Positions 14,901 through 30,021 of a DNA stretch of 64,000 bases are shown here, one piece after another. Numbering within the stretch: position 1 is the first letter of the stretch; every line of letters starts with the position of its first letter. Position numbers and translations under genes: made by a program. The notes under the pieces were generated by a model that saw only the letters and a program-made list of their open reading frames with translations, searched no databases and was not told the origin of the DNA. The DNA lies in assembly GCA_029204225.1 (NCBI GenBank), contig CM055097.1, positions 372,001 through 436,000 of the forward strand. Direction: 5' to 3'. This DNA comes from Diphasiastrum complanatum. Lineage: Eukaryota > Streptophyta > Lycopodiopsida > Lycopodiales > Lycopodiaceae.

Positions 14901-15466
14901 AAAACAAATTTTGCAATATCTTCAATTGACGAGAGATTATGGGTTGTGTTATTGTCATAATATAGGTTTTAGGTTGCTTTTCTATAGTGATGCTAGCTGG
15001 GCATCCCTCAAGGATGATTGTAAAAGCGTCTCAAGAGGATGCACCATTGCATCAGGAGCGGCAGTTCTCTGGGTCAACAAGAAGCAGACCGTTGTGGCTC
15101 AGTCATCCTGCGAAGCAGAGTATGTTGCATCAGCAAAGATGGCCAATGAGATAATTTGGCTTAGACAGTTCTTGGACAAATTGGGTGAAACAAGGAACGA
15201 GCCTCTGGTCTTGCAGATGGACAACACATCTGCAATACACCTCACCAAAGATCCTGTGTTCCACTCAAGAACAAAGCACATCACGATCAAGTACCACTTG
15301 ATCAGGGATCTGATTGAGAAGAAGATGATGCAGACCACCTTCATCGGAACAAAAGACATGGTTGCTGACATCTTCACAAAGGCCCTAGACAAAGGACTTT
15401 CTGTGAGACAAAGGAGCAGTCTTGGAGTTGTCAAGCTATCATGCTTTGAGACGGAGTTGAAAAAAC
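14890..15466 (+). pseudogene. Copia A RNase H
   Basis: A single good frame from about 14911 carries YSDASWASLKDD, SSCEAEYVASAKMANEIIWLRQ, QMDNTSAIHL, RTKHITIKYHLIRDL and MVADIFTKAL. All the usual copia RNase H motifs are present. The frame runs through the end of pol and into the right LTR. It belongs to a dead element because the upstream parts are broken. Confidence 0.92.
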
Positions 15467-15470
15467 CTAA

Positions 15471-16351
15471 TGTTTTTATTACCAAAGCTTTGCTAGCTTT
15501 TAGCCCTCTACCTGACAAAAAAGTTTGCGAACATGAAAGTCAAAGGATATGAAGGACACGAAGCAAAAATTTTTGCGAACGCTCACGAGAAGACACAAGC
15601 ATGAAAGATTCATGAAAGAGAATCTTTCACGACACAGTAGGAGAAAGTTAGACGACAAGAAGGTCAAACGACTTGAAAGTTGTCGCGACACTCTTCTCTG
15701 TCCTCAAGTCCCAAGAGGGACAGCAAGATCATGCAAGTACCCAGAAGTACACATATCTGATCTGATAGCATGACATCAGCAGATACACTTTAGGTTGTGG
15801 CTAATCCGCCACTCTTGTAATTTCGTGATTAGTTGTAGATGTTTAATTGTTTTAATCTAGAAAGTTACAAGAGGCGACTATCTATTTACTGGATGATACT
15901 TGATAAAAAAAAAAACATAGAGACATACATGAAATAGTCTAAAGCTAGTAAGCAAGAAGACGAAAACACAGAATACATGTCCGCCTGCGTGCGAAACAAT
16001 TCTGTCTAGGATATGAAGATCCAACAGTCCGCTAGTAAGCGAGACAATCACTCGTGAGAGAACTGTATTTTTCTCACAGCAACGCACTACATGGATCTGC
16101 ATGCAATGCTTGAAGAATCAGAGAAAGATCAATAGATGATTTTCTTGTCTTGTCTGATCTCGAATGTAAATAAGTCTACTACTATTCATGTATATGATTT
16201 CTCTTGTTCATTTAATTCCGCACCTTGGTTTGAATTTCGTTGAATGCTGCATTAATTTGTTCTTCGTAGTACAACAGTGCCTGTCTACATTCTGGAGGAC
16301 TGTAGGAATGATGCAGCTGGCAGTGACTAGCAGTCATATCTGAACTCCATC
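15471..16351 (+). repeat. Right LTR of copia A, truncated at its 3' edge
   Basis: Begins TGTTTTTATTACC and matches the left LTR to CTGAACTCCATC at 16351. After that the left LTR continues for about 60 bp that are absent here. Differences from the left LTR are spread along its length, implying an old insertion. The stretch 16352-16790 holds no recognised feature. Confidence 0.85.
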
Positions 16352-17317: not shown

Positions 17318-17378
17318 GTCTTAGAAAGCCAATTTGTGATGCTTTTTTGGAGTTTTTTCTTGTGTAGCTCAAATCATT
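17318..17378 (+). repeat. Host repeat, left part split by the TIR element
   Basis: Matches 58078-58137, for example AGAAAGCCAATTTGTGATG and CTTGTGTAGCTCAAATC. The match to the uninterrupted copy resumes at 25575 on the other side of the TIR element, so this marks the insertion point. Confidence 0.88.
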
Positions 17379-17411
17379 AGGGCCCTTTTGGACTCAAAAA
17401 GGGCCTCTTCC
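17379..17411 (+). repeat. Left terminal inverted repeat
   Basis: Starts AGGGCCCTTTTGGACTC and pairs with the reverse complement of 25535-25568, apart from one T in the T run. Each end contains its own hairpin: a GGCCCTTTTTG-like arm, GACT loop, and CAAAAAGGGCC arm. Confidence 0.9.
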
Positions 17412-17739
17412 TTGCCTAAACAAATTTTCTAGTCATAATTGATTTAGTGCTAATCAATCCTACGTGGCACCTTTATCTTGGGTTACCATACAAGGTGAGC
17501 AAGAGTTAAGGCCTAAATGTAGGTCTCATTTTCATAGACTATTGTAGGTTATTTGCATAGACTATAATAGGCAACTAATAGGTAAGTTACAAACTACAAC
17601 TAGAGTAGGGTTAATATAGGATGACCTTTCATTATCCTAACTACAATAGGACCCTAGGGATGGAAACTAGTATATGCCTAATAAAGCTTATATCATGGTT
17701 AGTTCACATTGAATTTTGACACCATTTAATTAAGGTATA

Positions 17740-20453
17740 TTGTAACGTTCTACGTAGATTCTTTTGGGAAATTCGACATCTTCAAGATGACAACCAAGTA
17801 TCACTTCATTTGAAGTTAGAGAAGGATTATGCGAACATAAAATCTGCATGGGGTGTTAACTTAAATCCGTATGAGATGCATTGTTGGAGATTAGAAGGCA
17901 AAAAACATATTGACCTACGGGTAAGAGGTGATTTATACCCTCATAATCCACTAGTAGATGCTCCTCCTAAATTTTTTGATGTACATAGTTTGTTAAGGTT
18001 TGTTGAGGACGGTCGGAATGGACTGCTTGGCTATTGTCAAGCAATGGATTCTTGAAGAATCCAAGCTGAGACATTGGCAAATAAGGCAAACATTCATATC
18101 TTGAGTATGAATGACAATTTAGAGTCATTGCATGGAATAAATATGAAATTGGAGCAGGAGATAAATGGTTTTAAAATAGAGCTTGCCAGTTCTGTCGCAA
18201 AAATTAAATAATTGCAATCTTCAATCAGTATATTTCAGAGGACAATATATGGCTTACAACGAAAGCGTAGAGTCTCGATGGATCAACAAGCACAAAATGA
18301 AAACACTAAGAGACACAAACTAGAAGCTTTGGCACCAGGTGGTGGTGCTAGTAAAAGACATATGAGGGACACAAAAGAGTTCTTGCAAAAGACGGTTGGA
18401 AAAGATTTTATTGCCGAAAAATATATGAAACATTTTTTGAAGGGTAAAGATTTGATTAAGATTGTGGAAGATGAAACAAGTGATTCAATTCGCTTGAGAA
18501 TTGCAAAAAAGTTAGTTGACAAGTTCAAGCCAAATCCAAATGTTAAAGAGATGGTGTACGCATGTGATCAAGGAGGTGTGAGTCGCAAGGGGTATAGAGC
18601 TTTGAAGAAATACATGAAATGCTCTGACAGAAATGGGTTAAAATGCCATCAAATAATACCTACTTATAAACTTGTTGAATCCACCAAACGAGAATGCAAT
18701 TTGATTTTGCTTTCTGAATTAGGAGAGTTTCAGCATATTGAGGATTCTTTTATAGTAACCAATAAGAAGAAATGACCTCCGACATGTTTTCATTATCATC
18801 AAGACAACAATATATTCTTAGATCTGAAAAAGGTCCAGCGATGACGATCCGACATTATGAAGTTAAAACAAATGCTAAGAACATTTATTGTGGATTTCGG
18901 TTTTCAATTGTATGCTTTTCTTTAGCTAATATGTTTTCATAATGAAATTTTTGTTTTACAGATTGCGGAGGTAAAGTTATATTTGTTATTAAGTTGGATG
19001 AAGCAGAAATCGTAAAAGGGCGTAAACTTGAATATGTCACAATCACCTTGATGAATCGTGAATTGCAACAGTTTGGCAGAAGTTATTGTAAAGAATTTAG
19101 CGTGCAATCCGAAAATCACATATGGTGGATAGCTGCATTTGAAGTTCATAGGGAGTCTCACGACGTACTGGAGTGGCTGTTTGAAAAATGTAGTATATCT
19201 AAGATAATACATGCACAAAATGAAGGCAAATTGCTCAATGTTGAAGGAGAAAGCTTTGCTGTAGAATGGCACCTAGCTGCTGATTTGAAAGCCTTGAAAT
19301 GCATGTATGGTTGTGGTCTCGGTGCAAATGCAAAGAATTTTTGTATATATTGTATGTTTGAATCTAGGCGGAACAAAAGTATTTTGAATTGCAACCAACG
19401 TCTTGGACCAAATAGGAACAATCTAGACAAAGCTTGGAATCCTGTGTTGAACATTTCTCTCGAAAGAGTCCATATTTGCACAATGCATGGTGAATTATGA
19501 ATACTGGACAAATTATTATTTTTGCATTGTTGTTATGCATGGAACATGTAGCCCAAATCAAGAGCAGATGTTAGCATTAGAAATCTAGAGATAATTTTAT
19601 CCGATATGGGATTGCATGGGGGCCACGTGAGTCTTACCAAAGACGTTGAGATGAGTGGAAAAACGCAAGATGTTCTAGCAAAAATTTCAATGGGTGGTGC
19701 GAAAGCGAGACACTTATTGTCAAATCATACTGCACGTGAAAGCAGTGTTGAATGGGAGTACTGGAAGAAAATATGTCAATGCACAACAAATATTGGCTCG
19801 GATCTTCGCATGGCAAGCATTTGATGCCTTGTCACAAACTATCAACAAAAAGATTGTGAGAGACGAAGATTTGGATAGATACGCAAGAAAAGTCAAAACA
19901 TTTACTGAATTGATGATCGATGCATGGGGAGAAACACACATAACTCACTATATGGTATGTGTGTCTCATATTTTTTACTTTCGTATTTATGTATTTATAA
20001 AGATTTAAACTAATACAAATTTTCTATGAACAACACATCTTCTATGCTCATGGACCTTGGTTTATAAAAACCTACGGATCATTAGCTATCTGGAATACGC
20101 AAGGCATGGAAAAGAGTCATTACAGGGCAAAGGTTGCATATTTAAAAAATTCACGCCATGGAAGAGAAAAGGGTCTTAATAATGCATTGGTTGAGATATT
20201 TCAATGGTTTTACAGAGGAGTTTTGGGTCGAGAACACTTTCAAAACACAAGAACTGAAGAGTTGAGTTCAATGATTTCCAATTCAAATTCAATTAGAAAT
20301 ACGACATGGCAATCCTCTAATGCTAAAACAAGGCATCAAGAATGGAGGATGTCTAGAGTCCGAGTTGGAAAGAGATGGATGTCGAGTACACCAACATCCA
20401 ATGTTTTGGAAAACAATGCTATAGAAGCTACAGAAACTGATGAGATGGAATAG
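17740..20453 (+). pseudogene. TIR-element gene 1, candidate transposase, broken
   Basis: The open frame around 17810 reads through in-frame stops at 18053 and 18209 into 18212-18775. It gives an RFFWEI...HLKLEKDY start, a predicted coiled coil (LESLHGINMKLEQEINGFKI), and a basic region with CDQGGVSRKGYRALKKYM. After a likely intron ending in TTTTTGTTTTACAG at 18960, a second block has FVIKLDEAEIVKGRK, HLAADLKALKCMYGCGLGA and CIYCMF, a CxxC. That block ends at 19500. Further homologous-looking pieces (IKTYGSLAIWNTQGMEKSHY) lie at 19606-20453 after a frameshift near 19760 and an intron whose acceptor looks damaged. The spaced Asp residues and CxxC suggest an RNase H-like transposase, but this is inference. 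An unrelated element protein is the alternative. Confidence 0.5.
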
Positions 20454-20586
20454 AAGCAATTTATGTTGGATTGTTATTCGAATATTTCTTTGTCATAAAT
20501 ATTAGTGACGAATTGGATTGTTGTTATAAATAGAAATTGTTTTATTTTGTTTTATAATAATATCTATTTTTGGAAACACGTCCCTC

Positions 20587-20594
20587 TATATAAG
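20587..20594 (+). promoter_or_regulatory. TATA box of TIR-element gene 2
   Basis: TATATAAG lies 125 bp upstream of the gene 2 start codon, in a spacing typical of a plant core promoter. Confidence 0.6.
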
Positions 20595-20718
20595 AGTGGG
20601 GGTTTTCATTTTGTTGTCACTTCTTGCTTTGTTGAAATTTCTTTCCTCGTAATTTAGCTTGTCTTGTTCAATTAGACTACTAGTTTGCTGGTAAATTAGT
20701 GTTCTTAGTTGCATCACA

Positions 20719-22166
20719 ATGTCGTCCTCTAAAATAGAGTTGGCCGATTTGCTAGCCCCCACACAGGTTTTAGATCAGTTAGATCGTCTTTATTGTATGT
20801 TCACCGGTAGAGTAGACACGCTTGCCACTCTATGGGCTAATACGGATGCATTCACGTATGTGAGTAAGTATATAGATGAAACTTTGAAGCCTTATGCCAT
20901 ACAAATTCCTAGCTCAACTATCATGTGGATTCCATATAACTTGCTTAGTTATATATGGAAAGGAGATAGACCCTTTATCGCTCGTCTCAACAGATTTATT
21001 AGTCACTTGGGTAACGATCATTACTTGGAGCTGACCAAGGATCAGCTGAAAACTTTTGATCTTGAAAGTGTAGGAAGGAAGTTTCTATCCGGTGATATTA
21101 CTCTTATTTTTTTGCTTAATGAGTTTCCAGCGACTGTGGCCCGCAACGAATACAATCCTAGTGAGCAGGTGAACGAGATGCACGACCCGGGTGAAGAGGA
21201 AGATTTATCTGCAGAGCACGAAGCAGTCTTGGCTGTGCAAGAGACAACAGGTGCATCCACATCAGCGAAGCCAGAAGATATAGATGAGTCCGATGATGTC
21301 ATGCTTCGAATCCATGGCCTTGCTCCAATCATCATTGAGGGGCAAGAGTATGTGTTCATGCATGACTTGCAACATATTCTCAGCTTGCGAGAAGATGAGA
21401 TGTTGGCAGCATAGGAATGGTAGTCCACTTTCGACCACACCCAGCCCGACGACACTTATGAGAAGTTGATCAGCCATGACACGGACACCACCGAGCAAGC
21501 ACTGGCAAGAGTGCTTTGCCAATTGAAAATGCTTCAACCACCACTAGTTCAAACAAGGCCATTCGAGGTACTCGAAGGGAAAACTGCTGACATGAAGTAC
21601 AAAGGCAAAGGAATTCAGCTTGCGCAAACCGAAGACATTGATGAAGGGACCGAGGCAAGTCTGACCCAACAATTCAACTTGTGTATTTTTGTTATGTTTG
21701 TTTGTCTTCATTATACTCATTTTGCAATAATTTGAACCAAATGCAGGATGCAGTGGAGCTTGATGCATTTGCTATGCGAAGGGGTGGCGTTCGGGAGAAA
21801 GTTGAAGCAGGAACTCTGGACAGGTCTATGGCCCACTACATTGGGAACTTGCCCAACAATTTTATTTTATGCTTCAACAACAAGTACAGTCCAGATGGAC
21901 TGACAGAGCTTCTTAAATGCAAAGCACTCTCCAAGCACATGTTGTCACCGTCAGCACCAAAGGCTTACTGTGTCTTCCGAAAAGCCGTTTTGAATGATTT
22001 CTGCCCTAGATTCGAGACCCGGCTCATTCTCTCGGGTCTAATTGGCCCTTATGAGAATGAGAGTGATGCTCCTAAATTAGCATTAGAAATGTTAAAACCA
22101 GTATTGTCATCAGAACAGCGATTAGAAAAGCTGAAATCCTCTCTGAAGGAAATGCACCGAACGTGA
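20719..22166 (+). CDS. TIR-element gene 2, unknown protein, two in-frame stops
   Basis: ATG at 20719 (MSSSKIELADLLAP). The frame runs 231 codons to TAG 21412, meets a second TAG at 21421, and continues open in the same frame to 21658. An intron (GT 21659 to AG 21753, 95 bp, T-rich) joins it to a last exon ending at 22166 (ELDAFAMRRGGVREKVEAG to LKEMHRT). The full length would be about 450 residues. It has an acidic middle (DPGEEEDLSAEHE) and no membrane segment or domain I recognise. Two nearby TAGs in an otherwise long frame suggest recent decay of a once-coding gene. It converges on gene 3. Confidence 0.6.
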
Positions 22167-22294
22167 ATAAAGATTTTGTCATTTTTTTCTTGTGGACTCT
22201 CCTAATTATCTGTTGTAATTCTATGATGTGCTTATTCTTTGAATTTAGAATTTAATTTTTTTTTCTTTGATAAAAATTTCTTTTGTCTTTTCTG

Positions 22295-22393
22295 TGGCGT
22301 GAAAATCAAGCCAGGGCGCGACCAGGGGCCGTTTGACTAGGTTTGACTAGGTCAAACGGCCCCTGGTCGCGCCTTGGCGTGATTTTCACGCCA
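22295..22393. repeat. 99-bp near-perfect palindrome between convergent genes
   Basis: The arms (22295-22338 and 22350-22393) begin TGGCGTGAAAATCA and mirror it as TGATTTTCACGCCA, with GGGGCCGTTTGAC against GTCAAACGGCCCC inside. The loop is about 11 bp (TAGGTTTGACT). It is GC-rich in AT-rich surroundings, 129 bp past the gene 2 stop. It could be a bidirectional terminator or small foldback insertion. Confidence 0.9.
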
Positions 22394-22643
22394 AGGCAAG
22401 AAAACCTATCTTAGCTACAACATGCTTAAAGAAACTACCATTCCCATAGTACTGAAAATTTTAAATCACTGCATTCACATACATGGTACTAAAATTTTCA
22501 AATCACTGCATTCACATAAATAGTACTGAAATCAGATATTAAACTCAATCACAACAATTTGCATTCACATAACCTGAAATTCTTCAATATACTTGACACC
22601 AAATCTTCAGTACATTATAAATAAAATCATGTACATGATATTT

Positions 22644-23819
22644 TTAACTGCGCTCTCTTCTTAGCCTTCTAGCTAGGTGGAGATCCTTCAGGGGTATTGT
22701 GACTCTCTTCTCGTGTACTGCACACAAAAATGAGTCCTCAAAAAGCTGCGTTGGGTACATTTCTGCAGACTCTTGTATCACGGACACCACATCTGCCGTA
22801 ACTCTGTTCCCCAAGGAAAATTCATTAATTATTTCTTTTACAAGCCTCACAAATGGGACCCTAGGTATCAGAAATTTTACAGACTTCTGATAACTCCGTA
22901 TATCTTGGAGCCACTTTGCGACCCTGCGCCTTTTACGCGGTCGAGGAGGTGGTGGTTGCATCCTACGAAGCTCATTTTCAGCCCACAGTGCTGCACGAGG
23001 GGCCGACCTACTACCACACTCTACGGTCCTACTTGGGCCAGCTGCAGCAGAACTTGGAGGTGGTGGAGGAGTAGAAGGTGGTGGAGGTGGAGGTGGTGGA
23101 GGCAGTGGAGGTGGAGGCGGTGCAGGTGGAGGCAGTGGAGGCGATGTTGGCGGTGTGGGCAGTGGTGATGGCTGCTGAGCTGCAGGGTTCCGTCGCTTTG
23201 ATGTAGAGCCTGCCTTGCGAGGATTCTTTCTCTTTCGCTCATGTGCTCCTCCCCCTGACCATCTATGTGTCGCCTTCTGCTTCATCCTTGTTGTGTGCGA
23301 CATTGGGGTGCCCTCATTAGAACCACCCACCAGCAATGACATCATTGGACCCATCACCAGGCCGTGACTTGGGGGTGACATGGTGGGTGTGGTGTCACCC
23401 GATATGCTCAAATCTGCTGTGTCCATGTCCATTGCTGGTGGAAATGGGTCAAAGAAAGCATCATTAAGAACTGGCAACTCACCCGATGCCTCAAGCTCCT
23501 CATCCAAGAACTTCATTGTTTCTTCCCGCTCGGTTGCCGTCGGGGAAGGGCTTTTTTGTCGTGGTTGCTGCTGCTCTTGCTGCTGGTCCTCCTACTGTTG
23601 CTGGTCTTCTTGCTGCTACTGCTCACTATGGTCCTCTTGTGCAGCTGCTGTGTGGGCCCTGTCCTCCTCAGCTTCATGCTGAGTGGCCGGATCATTTCGA
23701 GACGTTGTTGGGCTGCGACTCATGCTTCTGCTCCCATGTCTCTCTCTCTCATCGAGGGTGGCTAGCGCATCCCTATGGAGCAAGGCAGTCACTCTGGGAT
23801 CTCTAGCTGTTTGTTTCAT
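22644..23819 (-). CDS. TIR-element gene 3: proline-rich protein with C-terminal histone H3 fold
   Basis: An intact 290-codon frame runs from ATG 23516 to the stop at 22644. Residues 93-109 are basic (KRKNPRKAGSTSKRR), 111-155 are proline-rich, and 201-290 are a histone H3 fold: WLQDIRSYQKSVKFLI, PFVRLVKEI, and LFEDSFLCAVHEKRVTI followed by KDLHLARRLRRERS. By eye this is about 45 of 89 residues identical to canonical H3, with no gap and no long loop 1. The same frame extends upstream through two TAG codons (23592, 23616) inside a CAG-repeat Gln tract to ATG 23819, whose product begins MKQTARDPR, echoing H3 KQTAR. I take 23819 as the ancestral start because it is the first in-frame ATG after a TATA box at 23955-23962. 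Canonical tail lysines beyond K4 are not recognisable. Confidence 0.85.
22647..22916 (-). other. Histone H3-fold domain of gene 3
   Basis: Protein residues 201-290. The YQKS of the alpha-N helix, PF.RLV.EI of alpha 1, Q-E of alpha 2 and the LFED..LCA.H.KRVTI..KD..LARR.R-ER block are all kept. The Cys and His of H3 LCAIH are retained (LCAVH). Loop 1 has canonical length, unlike many centromeric H3 proteins. Confidence 0.92.
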
Positions 23820-23954
23820 TCCCTGCCATTTCCTCCGACATTGGTTAGCCTTTGAAAACGTATCAGAGAACACGAGAGCTGAAAAATAGAGAATCTCAAA
23901 AAACTGACACTGACACTCAAGCAATGAAGTGGAGAAATGAGGACCCAAGCACCC

Positions 23955-23962
23955 TTATATAG
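23955..23962 (-). promoter_or_regulatory. TATA box of TIR-element gene 3
   Basis: CTATATAA on the minus strand, followed by GGGTGC. A start about 30 bp downstream gives a leader of about 100 bp before ATG 23819. One earlier, out-of-frame ATG lies just upstream. Confidence 0.6.
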
Positions 23963-24177
23963 TGAAGGGTTCTATTTTTAGTAAGTGTCCCTATAAAAGT
24001 TTTGGCCTCTTTTTCAAATATAGTATGTTCTTGTTTTGGATCATGAGTAAAAATCCTAATTGTCGGTTAGCGGAGACTTTCAAAGAAAACTAGTAATATC
24101 ATTAAAATGCATATCACTAAACGATTAAAACCCTAACAAGTAGTACACAACCAACTAATTGTGTTTTCTATTTTTCA

Positions 24178-25044
24178 TTAGATAAAATCCTTTATTCCCA
24201 TTGGACTCCTAAGTCTCCGTATCTGCAAAACCAGACACAAAATTAATAATCCTATATGTATTCAACATTACTATTTAAAATTCAGGAATCTGATGGAAAT
24301 TAGGGACTTACATTTTGTCCATTACAAGTGAAGACAAAATCTGCTGGCACATCAGCAAAAGTCAATCCAAACATATGTCGAAGATCTTCTAGGCTGCACT
24401 CCTTATGATATGAATTTCTCGTATTTCATCATGGGGCAAATGTATGGATATCTCCACTTCTTGCTGATTCGTCTCCGCGTCCAGAGGGTCCCATCGGCCA
24501 CGACCAAACTTATATCGCCTATAGATGAAACTTAAGGAGCATGTTTGACGTGAAATATGATACCTTATGGTCATTGTTTCACAAGAGAGCTTACACCTTA
24601 TTAAATCTCCTTTATGCTCCATTTCCTTTGAATCCCATGTGACAAATATGTTATCTAATAGTGATAATTCTGTTGCTTTCCAAGCCCACATCGTGTTTGT
24701 TTTCCTAAAGGGGACCGCCTTAAATATGGCAACAAATACGGTGATCGACACAAAGATGCTATTTCATCCAATAAAATATCTCGATGCATGTATACGTGTT
24801 GCACATTTGCAAGATATTCGCCATTTTGGTCGATATTGAAATCATGGATCCTTCCTTTCCAATGGTAGTCTTGGTTGTTTCGCTTCCTCTTTGCAACCTT
24901 GTGAGTTCCTTTGCCCGATGGTTGCATGTAAACCCAGTCAAAAGTTGAAAATGTATGGGGCACCCAATGCTCATTGGAATCTTTGATGTGTGCAACAATG
25001 GAAGCTAGTTGATTCTTGGACTTCCTTGATTGAGTAGAGGCCAT
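24178..25044 (-). CDS. TIR-element gene 4, unknown protein, frameshifted
   Basis: ATG at 25044 (MASTQSRKSKNQLASIVAH). The frame has DFNIDQNGEYLANVQHVYMH and breaks near 24750, where the protein continues in a second frame (FVAIFKAVPFRKTN, then LIRCKLSCETMTIRYHISRQ). A second shift near 24405 leads to SLEDLRHMFGLTFADVPADF and a canonical donor GTAAGT at 24311. The acceptor TTTTGCAG at 24223 opens a short last exon ending IKDFI-stop at 24178. About 270 residues in all, basic near the N-terminus. No domain recognised. A GA array lies about 100 bp upstream of the start, in the promoter or leader. Confidence 0.55.
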
Positions 25045-25145
25045 AATGGATGATGTAATGATAATGTAGGATATGCGAAATAGTATGTGAGATCTTCGGA
25101 TAAGGTGAACCAAAATGAAAAAAATAGAATATTTGTGGAGTATAC

Positions 25146-25249
<104 letters not shown>

Positions 25250-25534
25250 CAAAATGAGAGAGAGATAAGAGATACAAGCTTGTGAACATTCAAAATTTGA
25301 AAATAAGGACTAGGCTCACTTAGGATATGGCTGCTAGTAGATAGACAGGCTAGTTGATGTTAACTTGTAGGCATAATTATTGCTTTATCTAGGGTTAATG
25401 TTAGAGGTGTACTTTGTGGGCCCACACTTGACTTAATCTGCACCATTGAATTTGCCATGTCATATGGACCATTCTCTTTCAGTTGTCAATATTTTATTGG
25501 GACACGTGTCGTCACTAACACTAATTATAATTAG

Positions 25535-25568
25535 TGAAGAGGCCCTTTTTGAGTCCAAAAAGGGCCCT
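25535..25568 (-). repeat. Right terminal inverted repeat
   Basis: The reverse complement begins AGGGCCCTTTTTGGACTC and continues CAAAAAGGGCCTCTTC, matching 17379-17411. The sequence diverges directly after CTCTTC. Confidence 0.9.
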
Positions 25569-26638
25569 ACTGCTTATGTAAATCTGAATTTTCCAGTAAG
25601 TGCACTTTCATTTTAGGGATTATTAATGATGAAATTAATAATGCATGCCAGTTCTTTCATGATTTATGATTCTAGGCTATGTTTTGGTCAAATTTGCTTG
25701 TTTTTCATGCTTTTAGCTCAAAATTGATAATAAGAACTAAAATCCAGCAAGATCAGATCATTTGGATGGCTATAATCATGTAAATTGGTTTGCACATGGT
25801 TGAGAAAGAGTTGCATCCAAAAATTTCCACTTTATAGTGAAGAAAAAAAAATCAAAAAATAGCCAAAAATCATTATTTTTGCTTGTTTTTTCATAAAGTT
25901 GGATAGTAGGTGGCTGTAAAACACATTTTAGAGCTTGCCAAAAGTTGAATCAAAGTCTTTTGAAGCTGTCCCTAAAGTTAGAGCCAAGAATTTCATGTAT
26001 TGGGCTTGTAGAAGGTTTAAAAAGACCAAAAATAGCCTATTTTTGTTGTTTTTGGGGGATATAAAGAGATTATTCTAGAAAATTTTACAACATGATTACT
26101 ATTTTTTTTTACCTTCCTAGCAAGCTATCAAACCTGTAAATTAATGGTCGGAGGCTTATGCTCCATCTCCATCTAGTTTAAAGCTATTTTGATTTCTACA
26201 AACCAAGAAATCTTCGTTCTCAGTCTATACCACTTCTTAGGACCGGTATGAATGTTTCACAAAAGTCTAATTGTTGGTAACATCATTTTTGGGCTTGGAG
26301 ATGTGTTCGATTGATTTTCCACCATATGGCCTTCTAGAAGTGTGCCCTACTACAGAATTTGGACTGCTCTGTTCTCACACGTGTGAAGCCTAGGTGGAAG
26401 GTTGATGTGGCAAACATCTCGATCACTTGGTCTCCCTCTGTACTGTGCTTTACAGCGTCTAATTTGGTGCATTGTAGCCAAAGCTATGGCCATTTGAAAA
26501 TTTGGCAATTTTGTGAGTAAAATTGACAAAATTTGGAATTGTTCTGATTGAATGCTAGTCTTTTTCCTAATTTGTGGTACTATGCTTGCATGGATTGATT
26601 GCATGTAAATTTTGGGTGTGATTCTAACATGCATGAGT
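25569..26638 (+). repeat. Host repeat, right part (copy 1)
   Basis: About 1.07 kb similar to 58138-59243, including TTGGTTTGCA, AAGTTGGATAGTAGGTGGCT, GTGAAGCCTAGGTGG and GCATGCTA-like ends. It contains no open frame that I recognise. It ends exactly where the copia D LTR begins (TGTTGG at 26639). Confidence 0.9.
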
Positions 26639-27215: not shown

Positions 27216-29080
27216 TCATAATAGACTACGAAACCTCTCAAATTTACATCTACCTAATGACTTAGTAAAAATATCTGCCATTTGATCTTCAGATTTACAA
27301 AAAACAAGATCAATGGCTCCATCAAAAAGTTTTTCTCGAACAAAATGGTAGTGTATTTCAATGTGCTTGGTTTGAGCATGTAAAACTAGATTTTTGACAA
27401 GGTGAATGCAACTTTGATTATCGAAAGATATAGTAGTCGCATCCACCTGTGGTTGACCTTAATTTACAAGCAATCTTCGTAACCATACCACTTCTTGTGT
27501 AGCATTACTGAGTGCTCGATATTCAGCCTCCGTCGATGATAAGACTAATGTAGGTTGCTTTTTGTTGCTCCATGAAATTGCAGCTGTACCATAACTGAAT
27601 GTATGACCACTGGTAGATCTTCTGTCATCAATATTACCTGCCCAATCGGCATATGTATAACCTACCAACATTGGTGCTTCAGGCTGATCATACTTCAAAC
27701 TAAGATTCAATGTCCCTCGAATGTATTTGAGAATATGTTTAGCAGACTTCCAGTGTGCTTGACTAGGATCTTGCATAAATTGACTAACAACACCAACAAC
27801 ATAAAAAATATCAGGTCGTGTGTGTGTCAAATAAATCAAACTACCCACCAGCTGTCTATACAAATAAGCATCCACTTTCTCAGATTCATCATATGCAGTA
27901 AGCTTCATGTTGACATCCATAGGTGTTCTCAAAGGCTTACAATCCTGCATATTGAACTTATAAAGCAAATCTCATGCATATTTGCTTTGTGTAAGAAAGA
28001 CCATGTCTTCCTTTTGCATACTTCAATGCCAAGACAATAGTGCATCAATCCTAGATCACTCATGTCAAAAGCATTGGAAAAATCTGATTTTATTTCATCA
28101 ATTAAGCTCTCATTACTTCCTGTAATAATCAAATCATCCACGTACAACACAATGAACACTATATCTGAATCTTGCCTTAGAATGTAAAGATTAGGATCAA
28201 CATCACTCTTTACCATTCCCCTTCACTTGAAGTGTTCATCAATGCAAAAGTACCACACTCGTGGTGCTTGCTTCAATCCATAAATGGCTTTGTTGAGTTT
28301 ACAAACAAGATGCTCTCTCCGTGGCTCAACAAATCCTTGAGGCTATACTAAGTACACCTCTTCATCCAGCATTCTATTAAGAAAAGCAGATTTAACGTCC
28401 ATTTGCTGGATTTTCCAACCATAGAAAGCAGAAATAGCAATGATAGAACATATAGTTACCATCTTAGCTACGGGTGCAAAGGTTTCCTCAAAATCAATAC
28501 CTTCCTGCTGCTCAAATCCTCTTGCAACCAACCATGCTTTGTACTTGTTGAGTTGCCCATCAGCTCCATATTTGATCTTGTATATCCATTTACAAGTGAT
28601 AGGCATCTTACCATCAGGTAGCTCAACCAAGTTCCACGTCCTATTTTTCGATATAGCTTCCATTTTTGTTTCCGTAGCTTCACGCCACTCCTTGTGCTCC
28701 TTTGCTTTATCAAAAGTTTTTGGTTCTTGAGCCTTGAGCACAGAACCCATTAGGGCTAGATTCATCTCTAATCTTGCAGGAGGTTTTCGATTTCTAGTTG
28801 ATCTTCTAAGCTCTCCCTGCTCACTTGATTTGGGAGTATCTCCCTTATTAGCATCACTTGTTACTGACAAGTACCACTTAGGCACTCTCCTAGGAATCTC
28901 ATTATTAACCCTGTCTTTTTCCATTGACTCTTCCATATCGACACCAACTTCTTCCTTCACTTGCACTTTAACTTTATCGTCAAAGAAATCAACTGTCAAT
29001 TTTATTTGGTCATTTTGACCCATCTCATCAAAAGTAGCATCTCTGAAAATCACGATCTTTTGTGCATCTGTGTCATACAT
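27216..29080 (-). pseudogene. Copia D reverse transcriptase and RNase H
   Basis: Minus strand, from 28700 downward: EWREATETKMEAI, GFEQQEGIDFEETFAPVAK, MDVKSAFLNR, active site LYVDDLIITGSNE near 28130, then RNase H motifs YADWAGNIDDRRSTSGHTF, SSTEAEYRALSNATQEVVWL, SFDNQSCIHLVKNLVLHAQT and QMADIFTKSL. Breaks occur near 28220-28340, 27960 and 27450. The part 28750-29080 is the integrase C-terminal spacer. Confidence 0.92.
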
Positions 29081-30021
29081 CCTATATGCCTTGGCTCTTT
29101 CATCATATCCAAGGAAAATACACTTAACAACCTTTGCATCCAGCTTCTTTCATTTTTTATCTGGCACATGAGCGTAAGCATCACAACCAAATACTCATAA
29201 ATGAGAAATATTAGGTTTCTTTCCAGTAAAAACTTCGTAAGGTGTAACCCTCCACGGACTTCATAGGACACCGATTCAAGATATGAGTAGCTATGTTGCA
29301 TGCTTTTGCCCAAAAGTATTTGGCAAACCCTTGCCCTAGCCATCTCCACAATGGATCTGTTTTTCCATTCTGCAACTCCGTTCTATTGTGGTGAATAGGG
29401 TGTAGTAGTTTGTCTCTTGATCCCCTGATCTTTGTAAAAATTTATAAACTTTGTTGAAAAAAGCTCACCGCCACCAACTGATCTGAGGGTCTTAATATAA
29501 CAACTAGTTGGTTTCTCAACTAGAGCTTTGAACTCTCTAAACTTGACAAAAGCATCAGATTTCTTGCTTATGAAATAAATCCAGATATGTCTACTATAGT
29601 CATCAATAAATGTGATGAAATAATAACAACCACTAATGGACCTAGTTTGTATTGGTCCACACATATCACTATGAACAAGATCAAGAATGCCATTGGCTCT
29701 TCTTGCTCCATCTTTGGGAAATCTCTCTCTCTCTCTATGTTGTTTTTCCAATATGCAACCCTCACAAATTTTTCCTTCAAAAGAGATATCAGGCAATCCA
29801 ACAACTAGATTACTTCTTTTAAGGATTTGCAAGCCTTGAGCACTAATATGACCAAACCTTTGATGCCAAAGATCACTTCGACTATCAATAGTGCTTACCA
29901 TAGCTTGAGTAAAAGATCTCGCATTCAATTTGTAGAGTCGATTCCCATTGACTCTAGCTCCTGTACACTTTGTAGTGATTCTTGATGTCTTTGACAAGAC
30001 ATTTGTCACTGTCAAACTCAA
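29050..30021 (-). pseudogene. Copia D pre-integrase and integrase
   Basis: Motifs DLWHQRFGHISAQGL near 29860, LDLVHSDMCGPI near 29670, YYFITFIDDYSR near 29610, TTTPYSPQ near 29385. The frame breaks at 29383, and the ERKNR helix continues in 29050-29349 in shifted frames. The catalytic-loop region reads LRSVGGGELFS, so the usual second Asp (SDxGGE) appears replaced by Val, another sign of decay. Confidence 0.88.

Follow-up and report, generated by a model that had tools for sequence, protein, structure and literature searches.

A split histone H3 encoded by a terminal-inverted-repeat DNA transposon of Diphasiastrum complanatum, a candidate for silencing-resistant element chromatin

The stretch of Diphasiastrum complanatum DNA analysed here (the window, 64,000 bp, C6:372001-436000) contains a DNA transposon with terminal inverted repeats, identified as such by those repeats, by its many copies and by its precise insertion. 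Judged by its sequence, which combines an H3-type core with the H3 N-terminal tip, one protein of this element is a histone H3. We propose that this H3 would form nucleosomes that are K4-capable and free of the K9 and K27 silencing marks, and thereby a silencing-resistant chromatin of the element, a reading that we consider evenly poised between right and wrong.

The borders of the element were drawn from 20 stretches of about 10 kb fetched around its top genome matches. The window copy spans 17375..25572 (8,198 bp), and copies elsewhere stop exactly at both coordinates; at least one exact element end is present in 16 of the 20 stretches and both ends in 5, L011 and L012 being near-duplicates. 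The preliminary description had placed the H3 gene between inverted repeats, and the 36/37-bp pair listed in Table 1 confirms this, with complementarity of 94% between 17380-17410 and 25536-25566. The terminal repeat, CATTAGGGCCCTTTTTGGACTCAAAAAGGGCCTCTTC, is near-palindromic and, with up to 3 mismatches, has 923 + 905 = 1,828 matches in the genome searched (1.74 Gb, 5,176 contigs), against 0 for the reversed control. The H3 gene itself gives 181 matched pieces in the genome, some copies being represented by two pieces; the gene is multi-copy and accompanied by inverted repeats, not a single-copy host gene. Short non-autonomous copies probably exist as well, because some of the listed terminal-repeat pairs are separated by about 1.0-1.1 kb, as at C1:67871296 and 67872435.

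Empty sites, found by joined flanks, were recovered for both copies tested, the L011 copy (85% identity over the aligned part) and the window copy (90%, at C12:25100727). At both the insertion is precise and the junction is without duplication or loss, so that the target-site duplication (TSD) is 0 bp; the other both-ended copies (L013, L014 and L027) have no direct repeat by eye except a single G in L013. A Helitron was rejected on account of the inverted repeats and the lack of a Rep/helicase match among the ORFs scanned, and the hAT family was rejected since gene A has no hAT/DUF659-type match up to E 10 and there is no 8-bp TSD. Copia-like retroelement fragments flank the element at window positions 14911-15552 and 27459-30021 (by eye). 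Together with GA repeats and the H3 genes, Copia remnants give the genome a plant-like character (by eye). The same insertion is found in L009, on the small unplaced contig C2485, which matches the window region at about 99.5% identity and represents an alternative haplotype or a recent duplicate.

Table 1. Features of the window copy of the element (positions in the window)
Feature	Position	Strand	Remarks
Left terminal inverted repeat	17375..17410	+	CATTAGGGCCCTTTT(T)GGACTCAAAAAGGGCCTCTTC, near-palindrome in itself
Gene A exon 1	17787..18861	+	begins MTTKYHLHVKLEKDY; decayed in this copy; coiled coil (by eye)
Gene A exon 2, putative DDE transposase	18962..19954	+	361-aa open frame in L021
Gene A exon 3	20034..20453	+	H-x4-H and E resembling RAG1
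Gene C	20719..22166	+	MSSPKIELANLLAP...; at least 2 exons; borders approximate; no assigned function
Hairpin, 43-bp arms	22295..22393	.	between convergent genes C and H3
Open part of H3 fusion gene, 290 aa	22644..23516	-	insert, poly-P, H3 core
H3 core	22644..22934	-	KWLQDIRSYQKS...RRERS
Broken 5' part of H3 gene	23517..23841	-	H3 tip, RS-rich + Q-rich stretch; one-base shift, two TAG
Gene D remains	24389..25043	-	upstream of H3 gene; no assigned function
Right terminal inverted repeat	25536..25572	-	36/37-bp pair with left one

The open part of the H3 gene in the window copy matches the Pfam Histone profile at residues 179-286 with 87.1 bits (cut-off 26.4; E 1.4e-24), far from the absence of any profile hit that would have spoken against a histone, and the best 60 of its 175 PDB sequence matches are all H3 (top E 2.1e-23). 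An ungapped alignment to the H3 core with about half of the positions identical had been read from the letters by eye; it holds from SYQKS to LARRLRRER, the identity to canonical H3 being 49% when measured on the near-identical C2485 copy. The fusion of this core to an unusual N-terminal region is likewise borne out by the intact copies L055 and L057, the former matching the Histone profile with 101 bits (same cut-off of 26.4). What did not hold is the extension of the gene to 23819, as 23517-23819 is not open in the window copy: by eye, the frame from the ATG at 23819 contains two in-frame TAG codons (23616-23618 and 23592-23594), and a one-base shift separates this ATG from the start ATGs of the family (23841 and 23829). 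In intact copies the counterpart of 23517-23819 encodes the H3 N-terminal tip. The preliminary description missed H3's own first eight residues, along with the loss of K9 and K27, the conservation between subfamilies and the absence of a TSD. The role that it suggested, an effect on chromatin or a part in targeting, stays hypothetical.

Two of the three copies fetched for the test are intact, L055 (416 aa from MSEEM) and L057 (398 aa); the third, L056, is open and has lost the tail frame. The intact protein, which in L055 starts with MSEEMARTKQTARDPRVTALLHRDALATLDERERRESRSRSRSRSP, reads M(SEEM)ARTKQTAR-D-P at its N-terminus, followed by some 280 inserted residues and the H3 core. In the HMMER alignment the C-terminal part of the protein corresponds to H3 from residue 15, at the APR motif, through the end of H3. 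H3 therefore appears to be interrupted at residue 9 by the insert (about 280 residues in L055), which replaces K9 to K14, and to resume from APR through a complete core. The insert is composed of an RS-rich, a Q-rich, a basic and a poly-P stretch, and holds two conserved segments, the acidic/aromatic FLDEEL...DSFFDPFPPAM and the motif GP(V/M)MGPMMSLLVG. AlphaFold places the four helices of the core in the correct order with a low pLDDT of 60; with this model, Foldseek gives 30 PDB matches, no histone among them and all of them with an E above 0.001.

The copies fall into two subfamilies, A and B. In subfamily A the tail is present in 23 of 29 rows, and in the 19 copies left after four near-duplicates were dropped K4, Q5, A7, R8, D9 and P10 are all unchanged, position 9 thus being D in 19/19. 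Variants at the remaining tip positions (R2 to W, G or Q in 7/19, T3 to M or I in 6/19, T6 to M in 2/19) are attributed mostly to decay of the C-to-T type. Three of five subfamily B loci have the tip, all with K4 and with R, G and R at position 9, and the tip is absent from the other two; a stop codon two codons before MAH/MAR/MAC points to the H3 tip as the probable N-terminus of the subfamily B protein. The residue aligned with K27, in a stretch where the alignment is poorly conserved, is R in 22 of 25 subfamily A copies, two others having K and one M; in subfamily B the pattern could be located in four of six loci, and all four have R. Genome-wide, the A-type tail (up to 3 mismatches) occurs at no fewer than 161 places, at least, against 0 for the control, and among the matches listed, which are part of the 161 and biased to close matches, the K4 and D9 codons are kept (by eye).

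Comparison of the subfamilies shows that the H3 gene has been kept by purifying selection alongside the other genes of the element. Between 22 A rows and 5 B loci (L016, L033 and L037, broken in or near the core, left out), the core has a pS of 0.87 and a pN of 0.22, with shifted-frame ratios of 0.90 and 1.70. The pair L055-L046, with pS 0.87 and pN 0.36 over the whole fusion, is too saturated for a ratio; by part, pS/pN is 0.85/0.42 outside the core and 0.91/0.20 within it. With its synonymous sites saturated and its core constrained, H3 looks like a maintained gene of the element and not like passing cargo. Single pairs between subfamilies give a dN/dS of 0.16 for gene A exon 2 (L021-L050, L050 being assigned to subfamily B through its likeness to L049, by eye), 0.14 for gene D (L014-L044) and 0.21 for gene C exon 2 (the window copy and L049). 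A prediction from the gene order of subfamily A was borne out at L050, where gene A had been fetched alone: about 3.7 kb from its exon 2 lies a B-type H3 (L058) on the expected strand, broken by one stop and one shift.

Within subfamily A the pooled dN/dS is 0.30 for the core (25 copies, the near-duplicates L009, L012, L023 and L036 removed) and 0.39 for the whole H3 gene (19 copies, with L010, L019, L022, L033, L038 and L040, which have no tail, also removed). The other sense frames give 0.79-0.99 (0.79 and 0.99 for the core) and the antisense frames 0.38-1.17; we ascribe the one low antisense frame (0.38 for the core, 0.47 for the whole gene) to codon phase. Genes A, C and D give values of 0.50-0.71, no different from frame controls of 0.42-0.99, and the test within subfamily A is uninformative because the copies are too alike. 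Most of the fetched H3 copies are dead: of the 29 H3 rows, the majority of which were chosen for their resemblance to the window copy, L018 alone has a frame that is open from the tail through the core, and it has lost its stop codon and reads past it. Of the deviations from the majority base, 51-64% are C-to-T or G-to-A, as expected of methylated, silenced copies.

Other copies have longer open frames than the window copy, whose damage comprises the base shift at the H3 start, two TAG codons in the Q-rich stretch, an AA at the exon 3 acceptor of gene A and a gap in gene D between 24761 and 24765, at which other copies have some hundreds of bp more. In L021 and L027 the frame of gene A exon 1 stays open for longer (exon borders by eye). 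Exon 2, with 113 matches genome-wide, has an acceptor AG in 9/10 and a donor GT in 12/13 of the loci with the pattern found (of 20), and exon 3 an acceptor AG in only 6 of the 12 loci where its pattern was found. The hairpin in Table 1, a strong one, lies between the convergent genes C and H3, and L058 has many short repeats downstream of the subfamily B H3 gene; hairpin and repeats may act as a shared terminator or give rise to small RNA.

The motif order of gene A, D...C-x2-C...H-x4-H...E, resembles that of RAG1, and in the weakly aligned stretch its H-x4-H and E fall at the zinc histidines and the catalytic E962 of RAG1. With exons 2 and 3 of L050 joined, the sole Pfam match is RAG1 (E 0.038, 12.6 bits against a cut-off of 25), and all 12 PDB matches up to E 10 are RAG1, weak as they are (E 0.29-0.79). 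A profile of three gene A copies has RAG1 in 6 of its 8 matches (E 0.47-1.5), the others including glucose-6-phosphate isomerase, which ranks first, and an immunity protein; the RAG1 Pfam match recurs below the cut-off in two of the three member proteins. Neither an A-type gene A chimera nor exon 2 alone has a RAG1 match, the AlphaFold model of exon 2 (pLDDT 38) is too poor for a fold search, and exon 2 has no relatives in IMG/VR or in the prokaryote genomes searched. Gene A resembles the DDE transposases of the RAG1/Transib kind weakly, around H-x4-H and E, and differs from them in falling below the Pfam cut-off and in its element's termini: Transib produces a 5-bp TSD and RAG1/Transib ends are of the CAC type, whereas this element has no TSD and ends in CATTAGGG. 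We regard the RAG1 kinship as a weak lead.

This lead matters for an alternative role of H3, that of a structural or targeting subunit of transposition in place of an anti-silencing nucleosome. Such an accessory could form a tetramer or nucleosome at the element ends or targets, or a reader domain could take hold of its K4 tip, so that integration is directed or licensed. The vertebrate RAG2 reads H3K4me3, which together with the RAG1 matches of L050 and the highly conserved H3 tip argues for an accessory; the RAG1 score below the cut-off, the unrelated isomerase at the head of the three-sequence profile and the lack of a PHD-type match among the ORFs scanned argue against it, and we give it a small but real chance. 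The free ARTKQTAR tip and the long insert could also serve as a decoy, in which the protein titrates the readers, chaperones or methyltransferases of host H3 throughout the genome and weakens silencing indirectly. This is unlikely, as the full core is kept, including H113, C110, D123 and R116, which we take to be residues of the H3-H3 interface, and a decoy tail would need less.

The origin of the protein bears on a further possibility, that it derives from the centromeric H3 (CENH3) and acts in centromere targeting. A canonical H3 query has 13 full-length matches at 97-98% in the genome, nine of them on contig C11 (30.7-51.8 Mb). A CENH3-like core in one open frame was found at L043 (C8:18045600-18047130), possibly a retrocopy or the gene of the host centromeric H3, and it has the RAPF and FEDSFL motifs in common with the element protein (by eye). 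Loop 1 of L043 is one residue longer than in canonical H3, whereas that of the element protein is of canonical length (by eye, against this one host locus), and its tip matches canonical H3; CENH3 identity was rejected on these grounds, canonical H3 is the more probable ancestor, and centromere targeting is hardly credible. It is quite improbable, too, that the element picked up a host H3 at random (transduplication) and multiplied it as a functionless passenger. Most fetched copies are indeed broken, and the parts of Dhillon et al. 2019 (PMC6710886) that deal with the hAT elements of fungal Mycosphaerellaceae argue for such a passenger there; in D. complanatum the core is constrained between subfamilies in spite of saturated synonymous sites, pieces of three other element genes are constrained as well, and the position and strand of H3 are conserved, by which a mere passenger is already largely refuted.

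Under the silencing-resistant chromatin that we favour, the element H3 would pair with host H4 and enter nucleosomes, for the most part those on copies of the element itself or on newly moved DNA. These nucleosomes could bear the K4 mark of active chromatin and could receive neither K9 nor K27 methylation. K9 methylation drives transposon silencing in plants. The insert may recruit further factors, and the resistant chromatin would last long enough for the transposase to be expressed and the element to move. Somewhat more tentatively, we picture a selfish histone whose tail retains exactly its activating half (ARTKQTAR, with K4) and has lost the silencing one (K9, K27), and with which the element, perhaps equipped with a RAG1-related transposase, would wrap its own DNA in nucleosomes out of reach of the silencing marks of the host.

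Histone H3 in transposons is known from fungi. In the excerpts of Manning et al. 2013 (PMC3538342), a hAT element of Pyrenophora tritici-repentis carries an H3-like gene and a further ORF between its terminal inverted repeats; it measures 5.6 kb, has ESTs, occurs in 10 long and 16 short near-identical copies and, like the element described here, has no function assigned to its H3. Like that element, the one described here combines an H3 gene with further genes in a TIR DNA transposon; as far as those excerpts go, the former is fungal and recent, with a hAT transposase and tens of copies, whereas the latter is from a plant, has no hAT match and no TSD, and its H3 is split by about 280 residues and conserved across diverged subfamilies. 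According to the parts of PMC6710886 that describe them, H3-carrying hAT elements also occur in Pseudocercospora fijiensis (about 9.5 kb, hundreds of copies) and in five more genomes of Cercospora, Pseudocercospora and Sphaerulina. The P. fijiensis element is likewise a DNA transposon with a captured H3 in hundreds of copies and differs, in the same parts, by an 8-bp TSD, 20-bp terminal repeats and inactivation of its copies by RIP. The VANDAL elements, in the portion of PMC10398659 that concerns them, are plant DNA transposons that bring their own gene, VANC, against host silencing; VANC proteins are sequence-specific, whereas our candidate is a histone with a putative anti-silencing activity. 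No plant transposon with H3 stands among the top-ranked papers of searches in the open-licence PMC literature. New here are the plant host, the different ends, the split H3 and its long conservation.

A further lineage with a captured H3, besides the fungal hAT elements, suggests that H3 is useful to transposons and not random cargo. If our proposal is true, the element makes its own silencing-proof chromatin, which goes beyond escaping or blocking silencing factors, and its protein is a natural H3 without K9 and K27 but with K4. It would then be a tool to ask whether H3K9 methylation on a transposon's own nucleosomes is needed for silencing in plants. Should the weak link to RAG1 be confirmed, a RAG-type enzyme and the H3K4 tip would be found together in one plant element.
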